DNA from: Siphonobacter sp. BAB-5405 | GTDB taxonomy: Bacteria; Bacteroidota; Bacteroidia; Cytophagales; Spirosomataceae | Assembly: GCF_002872335.1 (NCBI RefSeq) | Contig: NZ_NJAG01000009.1 | Span: 1-64,000, forward strand | Direction of reading: 5' to 3' | DNA: 64,000 nucleotides | Shown here: one piece after another, positions 61,899 to 63,835 of the stretch | Position numbering within the stretch: position 1 is the first letter of the stretch | Layout: every line of letters begins with the position of its first letter | The notes under the pieces: generated by a model | The model's database searches: none | Told to the model about the DNA's origin: nothing | What the model saw: the letters and a program-made list of their open reading frames with translations, nothing else | Position numbers and translations under genes: made by a program

Positions 61899-62651
61899 TT
61901 AGGTATTTAAGTACTTCAAAGCCTTTTCCAGATCCTCGGGTGTATCTACGCAGGGACTATCGTAGGTCGTTTCTACCATCTGAATTTTATAGCCAGCTTC
62001 CAGCCATCGGAGTTGCTCCAGCGACTCGGCTTTTTCCAGGGATGAAAGCGTAAGTTGGGTAATGGCCTGCAGAATATCCGTACGGTACGCGTACATGCCT
62101 ACGTGCCGGTAATACGTATGGTGCAAATGCCATTCCTGTGGTGGATAGTTACGCAGGAACGGAATCGCCTGACGACTAAACAGCATCACTTCGCCCTTGT
62201 TGTTGAGTACAATCTTCGCTTCGCCCGGATCGTGCAGCGTTTCCGCCGACGTAACTTTAATCATCTGCGTAGCCAATTCTACCTCTCCATCCAGCACGTC
62301 CACCAGTTCATTGATCTGAACGGGGTTTAAGAAGGGCTCATCTCCCTGAATGTTCAACACATACTGAACAGATTCGGGATCCTGATGCGTTTCCTTCCAG
62401 CTGGCGAAGGCTTCCCAGCAACGATCCGTACCGCTGGGGTGATCTTCACGCGTTAATACGGCTTTGCCGCCGAAATTCTGTACGTGTTCGGCAATACGTA
62501 CATCATCCGTAGCAACAATAACATCCAGTAGTTTCGAAGCCTGAGCGGCTTCGTATACGCGTTGAATCATGCTTTTGCCCTGAATGTAGGCCAGGGGTTT
62601 ACCCGGAAAACGGGTCGAAGCATAACGGGCGGGAATGATTCCTAATACCAT
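61899..62651 (-). CDS. kdsB: 3-deoxy-manno-octulosonate cytidylyltransferase
   Basis: The 250-residue enzyme couples Kdo to CMP, giving CMP-Kdo for the lipopolysaccharide core. Motifs: IIPARYASTRFPGKPLA (nucleotide-binding), VATDD, TREDHPSGTDRCWEA, NIQGDEPF and DTPEDLEKAL at the C-terminus. Upstream on the same strand lies the transaldolase-CBS fusion, with a terminator between. adk follows. Presence of kdsB shows the cell makes Kdo-containing LPS. Confidence 0.95.
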   Translation of the reverse strand: MVLGIIPARYASTRFPGKPLAYIQGKSMIQRVYEAAQASKLLDVIVATDDVRIAEHVQNFGGKAVLTREDHPSGTDRCWEAFASWKETHQDPESVQYVLNIQGDEPFLNPVQINELVDVLDGEVELATQMIKVTSAETLHDPGEAKIVLNNKGEVMLFSRQAIPFLRNYPPQEWHLHHTYYRHVGMYAYRTDILQAITQLTLSSLEKAESLEQLRWLEAGYKIQMVETTYDSPCVDTPEDLEKALKYLNT

Positions 62652-62736
62652 AGTTTTGGTTACGGGCTATTCAAAAATGAAGCCATTGATGAATTTACTA
62701 CTAAACCTTCGTTTGGTTTAAAGGCTAATAGTAAAA

Positions 62737-62768
62737 TTGCCTCCTGAACAAATTCGTTCAGGAGGCAA
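62737..62768 (-). terminator. terminator of the transaldolase-CBS gene
   Basis: TTGCCTCCTGAAC at 62737-62749 pairs perfectly with GTTCAGGAGGCAA at 62756-62768; on the minus strand TTTTAC follows. It lies about 55 bases past the stop, so kdsB is probably transcribed separately. Confidence 0.82.
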
Positions 62769-62821
62769 CAAGGATATGCATAGTTCAGTTACTTCCTGCT
62801 GGAGCAAGAAACTGAATTTAA

Positions 62822-63835
62822 TTAATCGTTCTTCAAATCCTGGATATCCAGCATACCTACGGGCTTGCCGTTTTCCGTTACCAGAATGGTATCTACGCTG
62901 GTTTTCTTGAAAAGAGCCGCAGCGGCGTCCAGCAATTCGGTACTTTCAATGGAAATAGGCGTTCCGTATTCGAAATCTCCCATTTTCTTCGACAGTACAT
63001 CGCGACCACCGTCAGCCAGTTTCCGGCGAAGATCACCGTCAGTAAATACACCTTTCAGGTTACCGGCTTCGTCAACAACCGTAACACAGCCAAAGCCGTA
63101 TTCAGTCATTTTTACGATGGCTTCCGTCAAGGAGATATCCGTCGTAACCATTGGGTTGATGGTATTGATCGCCTGACCTACCGTGACCGTGATCAAACGC
63201 GTATGCTCGATGAACTGGTTCGTACCGATAGCCGTGAAGTTGTTTTCCGTCAGGGCTTTCATCAGTTTCCAGGGTACAGTAATGGTGTGGCAACCCAGGT
63301 CGATGGCGTTCCGTACGTGTTCGGTATTCCGTACTGACGAGAACATTACTTTTGAATCGAAACCGTAGGCTTCTACCAGTTCTACTACATCACCGATCAG
63401 CGTCAGGGCATCGTATCCCTGATCCTGCATCCGTCCGGCCAGTACGCAAATGTAGGTAGCACCGGCTACGGCTGCCATGTACGCCTGTTGGATGGTGTAT
63501 ACCAGGTGAACGTTTACTTTCAGTCCTTTGTCAACCAACGTGCGGCAGGCTTTTACGCCTTCCAGCGACACGGGGATTTTAAATACCGTACGCTTAGGGT
63601 CCAGACCCAGAGCCAGCTGGCGTTCCGCGTCGGCTACAATATCGGCGGCGGTTTCACCCAGGGCTTCGATCTGAAGAACGGGTACAATTTTAGAAAGCTC
63701 CACGATCGTTGCATCCAGGTCGCGAATACCTTCGCGGTGCATGAACGTGGGGGTTGTGGTAAGACCGGTCAGAAAACCGAGTTGAAATGCCTCTTTGATT
63801 TCTTTTAAATCGGCAGAATCAAGATACAACTCCAT
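62822..63835 (-). CDS. transaldolase (FSA/TalC type) fused to a KdsD-like CBS pair
   Basis: The 337-residue protein has a small-type transaldolase barrel (1-215) with MELYLDSADL (D6), the Schiff-base Lys K86 in VFKIPVSLEGVKA, and VAGATYICVLAGRMQDQG. The usual TTNP motif reads TTTP (T28 replaces the active-site Asn), and the Thr that follows in E. coli FSA (T109) aligns with H110. Residues about 225-337 form two CBS motifs; GVFTDGDLRRKLADG (262-276) is typical of the CBS pair of arabinose-5-phosphate isomerase KdsD. It probably makes or splits a sugar phosphate under ligand control. kdsB lies downstream. The reaction is not known. Confidence 0.88.
   Translation of the reverse strand: MELYLDSADLKEIKEAFQLGFLTGLTTTPTFMHREGIRDLDATIVELSKIVPVLQIEALGETAADIVADAERQLALGLDPKRTVFKIPVSLEGVKACRTLVDKGLKVNVHLVYTIQQAYMAAVAGATYICVLAGRMQDQGYDALTLIGDVVELVEAYGFDSKVMFSSVRNTEHVRNAIDLGCHTITVPWKLMKALTENNFTAIGTNQFIEHTRLITVTVGQAINTINPMVTTDISLTEAIVKMTEYGFGCVTVVDEAGNLKGVFTDGDLRRKLADGGRDVLSKKMGDFEYGTPISIESTELLDAAAALFKKTSVDTILVTENGKPVGMLDIQDLKND

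Follow-up and report, generated by a model that had tools for sequence, protein, structure and literature searches.

A transaldolase–CBS fusion as a candidate replacement for KdsD in the Kdo pathway of Bacteroidota

Many Bacteroidota with Kdo genes lack KdsD but carry a gene in which a transaldolase-type barrel is joined to a KdsD-like CBS pair, which suggests a second route to Kdo. From the distribution, neighbourhood and residues of this fusion, we consider it probable (about 0.75) that it replaces KdsD as the enzyme forming arabinose 5-phosphate (A5P) for KdsA, with the CBS pair adjusting the rate to the Kdo pathway. Most LPS-bearing Gram-negative bacteria require Kdo, whose precursor A5P is tied to the KdsD isomerase family. 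We infer that A5P is the product, and likewise how it would be formed and what the CBS pair would bind.

A fusion gene in a genome with Kdo genes

The fusion gene was found in the window, a 64,000-nt stretch of DNA from a genome near Siphonobacter (G000; 6.49 Mb, 99.99% complete). The features of the window used here are the following.

62822..63835, minus strand: TAL–CBS fusion gene, 337 aa, ATG start, stop codon included (open reading frame, Pfam, genome matches, AlphaFold)
63203..63835, minus strand: TAL_FSA barrel, about residues 1–211 (Lys86 codon 63578–63580, His110 codon 63506–63508)
62825..63202, minus strand: KdsD-like CBS pair, residues 212–337 (Pfam, NCBIfam, PDB match, CBS tree)
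63023..63052, minus strand: GVFTDGDLRR motif, residues 262–271 (alignment of core fusions)
61899..62651, minus strand: kdsB, CMP-Kdo synthetase, 250 aa (TIGR00466, 208 bits, cut-off 155.2)
62736..62769, minus strand: terminator-like hairpin of 15 pairs between the fusion and kdsB (consensus match only)

A sequence-only reading of this DNA had described a fructose-6-phosphate-aldolase-type barrel with Lys86 joined to a CBS pair, with kdsB as the next gene. The kdsB score bears out the latter, and Pfam confirmed the former, placing TAL_FSA at residues 3–201 (E = 1.3e-32) and CBS in two stretches (E = 5.5e-16), both above the Pfam cut-offs. The TAL_FSA superfamily model (PF00923) scored 113.7 bits against a cut-off of 27, and the Schiff-base lysine of the barrel, Lys86, aligned with Lys85 of FsaA; against the fructose-6-phosphate aldolase equivalog TIGR00875, the score was 148.9 bits, below the curated 245.95. 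The AlphaFold model had a mean pLDDT of 89.0 and a pTM of 0.60, and in a fold search the barrel proved to have the transaldolase fold, residues 1–222 accounting for all 50 matches listed. Fructose-6-phosphate aldolases and TalC-type transaldolases have no CBS pair, which the fusion carries in addition. Conversely, KdsD, KpsF and GutQ (TIGR00393) have a catalytic SIS domain where the fusion has the TAL_FSA barrel, and Pfam detected no SIS domain in the fusion at E ≤ 0.001. The architecture is not a chance joining, because 57 of 295 genomes of the window's class gave a fusion-type match (E < 1e-50) running through both the barrel and the CBS pair; 56 of these spanned nearly the whole query and one (G284) spanned residues 107–334.

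The CBS pair had been read as KdsD-like, and by similarity this holds. Its best NCBIfam matches were KpsF, KdsD and GutQ (TIGR00393, 57.1 bits, E = 2e-15, residues 218–329), followed among CBS families by PrdR (1.4e-7); the score lies below the curated 203.7 bits of TIGR00393, of which only profile positions 156–267 match the fusion. The best PDB match was 4o9k (E = 3.3e-13), the CBS pair deposited as a piece of an A5P isomerase and, we take it, solved with CMP-Kdo. The C-terminal CBS pair of the KdsD type is thus the one most similar to that of the fusion, and in the GVFTDGDLRR motif G262, F264, T265, D266, G267 and R270 were invariant in all 44 core fusions aligned. The CBS tree counts against replacement of KdsD in that it leaves the fusion pairs outside the KdsD pairs, with the KdsD group unsupported (45/0) and a poor outgroup: four other CBS stretches of the window's genome on very long branches, one of which falls with KdsD. 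A joint clade of fusion and KdsD pairs was not rejected (p-AU = 0.309).

The window's genome carries kdsA (on another contig than the fusion), kdsB and a PF04413 (Glycos_transf_N, WaaA-family) gene, which presumably belongs to the Kdo transferase family. The KdsD model found no SIS part in this genome, matching only the CBS pair of the fusion and, weakly, a CBS stretch of a 513-aa frame. With the other genes present and KdsD unmatched, the A5P step therefore lacks a recognised enzyme in this genome. A search with the SIS model (E ≤ 1) returned a putative GlmS (a 616-aa frame, so named from its layout of two SIS domains), an 84-aa frame (E = 0.31) and two proteins named by eye, one GmhA-like (36.1 bits) and one MurQ-like (20.3 bits, under the cut-off of 25). 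Neither TIGR01670 nor the KdsC-like protein linked to fusions elsewhere found a KdsC in the genome, so that Kdo synthesis, if it takes place, would need another phosphatase. This missing KdsC match, the separate contig of kdsA and the hairpin that splits the fusion from kdsB all weigh against the proposed role in this genome, although the number of terminator-like sites in the region (2, against 2.3 in shuffled sequence) carries no weight by itself.

Distribution and neighbourhood of the fusion

To compare occurrence, the 295 genomes were searched for the fusion, KdsD and kdsA. The core set comprised 51 fusions, 50 of them matching at ≥54% identity plus that of G284 (51%, residues 107–334 only), and six divergent fusions (31–38% identity) were treated apart. 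The threshold for KdsD was E ≤ 1e-25, at which single-domain forms also count as KdsD. For kdsA, the cut-off of E ≤ 1e-50 was chosen after viewing the gap to the DAHP synthase background, and the same count of 211 was obtained at E ≤ 1e-40 with the KdsA of locus L058 as query. The set sizes (167, 211, 51, 51 and 119 genera) agree with the search tallies.

Among the 211 genomes with kdsA, KdsD and the fusion alternate: 157 carried KdsD alone, 48 the core fusion alone, two both and four neither (Fisher p = 3.5e-40, kinship between genomes ignored). Since members of the same genus cannot be treated as independent, counting by genus is safer; on this count, 96 of the 119 genera with kdsA had KdsD, 22 the fusion, one both and none neither (p = 4.5e-23). 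By hand count, core fusions were spread over 15 families, and six families (f1, f2, f7, f13, f37 and f40) held the two kinds in different genomes. Because the fusion and KdsD are close to mutually exclusive among kdsA genomes, we propose that the fusion supplies A5P itself. An aldolase "supplying or draining sugar phosphates", as first suggested, was too vague a formulation.

Several genomes do not fit. Both enzymes occur in G255 and G279, which belong to the same genus, and four genomes with kdsA had neither at the thresholds used. One of the four, G013, holds a fusion fragment that is truncated by a contig end and adjoins its KdsC-like gene; the two-enzyme genomes and the other three (G174, G259 and G268) speak against replacement of KdsD. 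The 84 genomes without kdsA comprised 70 with neither enzyme, seven with KdsD only, one with a core fusion, five with a divergent fusion and one, G150, with a divergent fusion and KdsD. The presence calls are imperfect, since the core fusion genome without a kdsA found (G153) is 67% complete and eight genomes had KdsD with no kdsA found.

An alternative that we consider quite unlikely is that the fusion is a regulated transaldolase or fructose-6-phosphate aldolase which steers sugar phosphates to Kdo, A5P being made by a different enzyme that has escaped recognition. Its fold is indeed that of transaldolase, and absence of KdsD means merely that no profile matched. Against this, the window's genome has two TAL_FSA genes besides the fusion, and in the fusion none of the DHA-pocket and water residues N28, T109, A/S129 and Y/F131 is retained. 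Nor is the GmhA-like SIS protein a general stand-in for KdsD: it was present in 255 of the 295 genomes regardless of KdsD state, and some fusion genomes had none (G117) or only distant matches (G242, 8.3e-40).

Replacement of KdsD by the fusion is also consistent with the gene neighbourhood. We read 40 stretches around fusions, 34 of them core. Of these 34 core loci, 19 had a co-oriented kdsA upstream at no more than 750 bp, the distance being at most 150 bp in 16; a gene for a KdsC-like HAD phosphatase followed within 200 bp downstream in 26, and kdsB was found on the strand of the fusion within 3 kb in ten. The phosphatase matched KdsC weakly (48.1 bits against a cut-off of 208), and its KdsC role is putative. 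At least one of the three genes was near the fusion in 28 of the 34; kds genes were absent from the stretch read in the other six (L055, L057, L065, L083, L084 and L087), of which L084 is a contig of just 3.8 kb. We also took the best 80 of at least 562 relatives of the fusion in genome contigs, which include Siphonobacter, Runella, Chryseolinea serpens and many MAGs (Bacteroidetes, Cytophagales, Chitinophagaceae and others) and which overlap with the 295 genomes, so that they are no second sample. In these best 80 loci, kdsA was upstream in 52 and the KdsC-like gene downstream in 51; any kds gene lay within 4 kb in 60, and none was found within 4 kb or to the contig end in 20. The 6 of 34 core loci and 20 of the best 80 loci lying apart from kds genes count against the proposed role, although an accidental neighbourhood would not give such regular linkage and co-distribution. 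The suspected tie to the Kdo pathway is therefore upheld, by co-distribution with kdsA and by clustering with kds genes, and its foreseen weak point, a missing conserved link to kds genes in relatives, did not materialise (28 of 34 core loci and 60 of the best 80 linked).

Genes inserted between kdsA and the fusion, judged by eye to be secreted proteins, PIN-like pairs and others, were considered as informative and set aside. Loci L061 and L062 encode a roughly 220-aa secreted protein in this position, and L171, L179, L180 and L188 a PIN-like, toxin–antitoxin-like gene or pair.

A KdsA subtype that accompanies the fusion

Searched with the KdsA of L058, the kdsA genomes fell into two groups: 51 with a best E of 1.5e-89 or better and the other 160 with 6.4e-81 or weaker, at identities, among the rows listed, of ≥66% and ≤50%, respectively. 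Fifty of the 51 genomes with this KdsA subtype are core fusion genomes. The exceptions to the pairing are G153, with the fusion and no subtype found, and G290, with the subtype and no fusion. We refer to the subtype gene as kdsA2 and to the KdsC-like gene as kdsC2. The latter was likewise present in 51 genomes, of which 47 have a core fusion; it was lacking in the core fusion genomes G000, G041, G081 and G115 and occurred without a counted fusion in G013, G178, G211 and G290. In a mirror-tree comparison of 20 loci, fusion distances correlated with KdsA distances (r = 0.84), the pairs not being independent. G211, listed as 100% complete, has the KdsC-like gene (C2:311627-312256, locus L195), but searches for kdsA, the fusion and KdsD gave nothing.

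In the window's genome, kdsA2 lies in the following region.

L197, 7518-11339 (G000:C4): kdsA2 adjoining KdnB- and KdnA-like genes

The KdnB-like neighbour matched PDB 5k8c (2e-130) and, second, 3rf7 (9.2e-125), deposited merely as an iron-containing alcohol dehydrogenase; the KdnA-like neighbour matched 5k8b (3.3e-131; next match 1.9e-46). KdnA and KdnB act on Kdo (8-amino-Kdo). Because kdsA2 adjoins these matches, the LPS of the organism is predicted, with some probability, to carry 8-amino-Kdo (Kdo8N).

The most informative arrangement was found in G290, a genome of the window's family. Here kdnA-like, kdnB-like, kdsA2, kdsC2 and kdsB genes stand in a row on one strand, the fusion is absent from the 125-bp gap between kdsA2 and kdsC2, and a SIS–CBS KdsD is encoded elsewhere, adjoining recQ. 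As the kdsA searches of this genome found no kdsA besides the subtype, and KdsD is present, the KdsA subtype of G290 presumably receives its substrate from KdsD, which makes A5P. This apparent swap, seen in one genome, is our strongest indication that A5P is what the fusion produces. A long inverted repeat lies in the 125-bp gap (L194), where relatives have the fusion.

These observations bear on a further explanation, in which the KdsA subtype takes another substrate, made by the fusion, and gives a modified octulosonate. The subtype is 42–50% identical to the kdsA products found near KdsD (6 of the 16 KdsD loci read had kdsA), and some of its motifs differ. However, it clears the KDO8P synthase cut-offs (332.1 against 314 bits and 349.3 against 242 bits) and keeps the NRSS motif, in G290, which has KdsD, it was the sole kdsA detected, and in the window's genome it lies next to matches to two enzymes of Kdo itself. 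We regard this explanation as highly improbable.

Active site, candidate chemistry and divergent relatives

The fusions of 44 of the 51 core genomes were compared with four FSA/TalC references. All 44 kept the residues at FsaA positions D6, T26, T27, K85, R134 and S166, so that the fusion shares with the E. coli FsaA/TalC type not only the barrel fold but also the Schiff-base lysine, Asp6 and the phosphate-site residues. In contrast, every one of the 44 had T, T, H, C, L and S at FsaA-numbered N28, S30, T109, A/S129, Y/F131 and A165, respectively, and Glu (Glu57 of the fusion), which is also the TalC state, at the position of Gln59. The set D6, T28, E57, K86, N108, H110, C130, L132 and R135 was common to the 44 core fusions and the best 80 loci. 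In FsaA, according to the available part of PMC13259622, the donor is surrounded by Asp6, Asn28, Gln59, Lys85, Thr109, Ala129 and Tyr131, and the catalytic water is held by Gln59, Thr109 and Tyr131. The fusion thus departs from the donor-pocket and catalytic-water set of FSA and transaldolase, having T, E, H, C and L, four of which differ from the references. The alignment points to a barrel that would keep the covalent chemistry and the phosphate site with a rebuilt donor pocket and water site, and hence to a different substrate or an altered proton path.

By analogy with FsaA, we favour, at slightly less than even odds, an enamine chemistry at Lys86. A two-carbon glycolaldehyde unit would be bound to Lys86 as a Schiff base, with Asp6, His110 and Glu57 shuttling protons, and the enamine would attack glyceraldehyde 3-phosphate (G3P) bound by Arg135, Ser167 and Arg169 to give A5P. 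The two-carbon unit might be free glycolaldehyde or might come from ribose 5-phosphate (R5P) opened in the same site; the latter would amount to a net C2 epimerisation of R5P to A5P, for which free glycolaldehyde would not be required. The CBS ligand would probably be CMP-Kdo or a nucleotide. As a tentative extension, the fusion could be a transaldolase-fold C2 epimerase that converts R5P to A5P through a lysine enamine, receives feedback from the Kdo pathway via its CBS pair and founded a second natural Kdo route, seen in 15 families of the class. Precedent for the product exists: the available text of PMC9947464 describes A5P formation from glycolaldehyde and G3P by E. coli FsaA, and A5P together with R5P from the same substrates by E. 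coli TalB F178Y, a transaldolase barrel. TalB F178Y is engineered and has no CBS pair; the corresponding residue in the fusion is Leu. Among the fold matches listed, the transaldolase structure 3upb bears a title that includes 'in Covalent Complex with Arabinose-5-P'.

The main rival to enamine chemistry leaves the role unchanged and is unlikely: a true isomerase on the same barrel that would convert Ru5P to A5P by proton transfer through His110, with no C–C cleavage. Such an enzyme would act on KdsD's own substrate, and a changed proton path is plausible, the water residues of FsaA (as given in the same part of PMC13259622) being replaced by E57, H110 and L132 in all 44 core fusions. However, Lys86 and Asp6 are strictly kept, and an isomerase working without lysine would not need them.

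We found no report of the fusion, or of KdsD replacement in Bacteroidota, in the literature searched, with most subscription journals outside its scope; a literature search on CMP-Kdo with CBS domains gave nothing on point. The possibility that the fusion is a broad, already characterised family was thus half right: with at least 562 relatives it is broad, and in the literature searched none of them is characterised. If the fusion does replace KdsD, a sizeable share of the Bacteroidota, here 22 or 23 of the 119 genera with kdsA, uses an unrelated A5P enzyme, by a reaction not described in that literature; genome-based models that score the Kdo pathway of these bacteria as incomplete would be wrong, and compounds targeted at KdsD would miss them. 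The fold would then offer a natural, probably regulated A5P-forming enzyme; an A5P-forming reaction has already been engineered from FsaA (PMC9947464, available text).

The six divergent fusions (L088–L093, in G208, G119, G086, G049, G150 and G285) set a limit to this reading. The catalytic lysine is replaced by Arg in five and by Ser in one, and the phosphate-site Arg is present in none of the six; no kdsA was found in their genomes, and no kds genes on the locus stretches read. They are possibly pseudo-enzymes that would retain the CBS pair as a sensor. A clade with dead barrels in genomes without kdsA counts against replacement of KdsD, and the architecture can therefore serve something else. 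Clustering of the neighbouring genes placed pafA-like and M61-peptidase-like genes, named from L088, upstream of the divergent fusion in all six loci.
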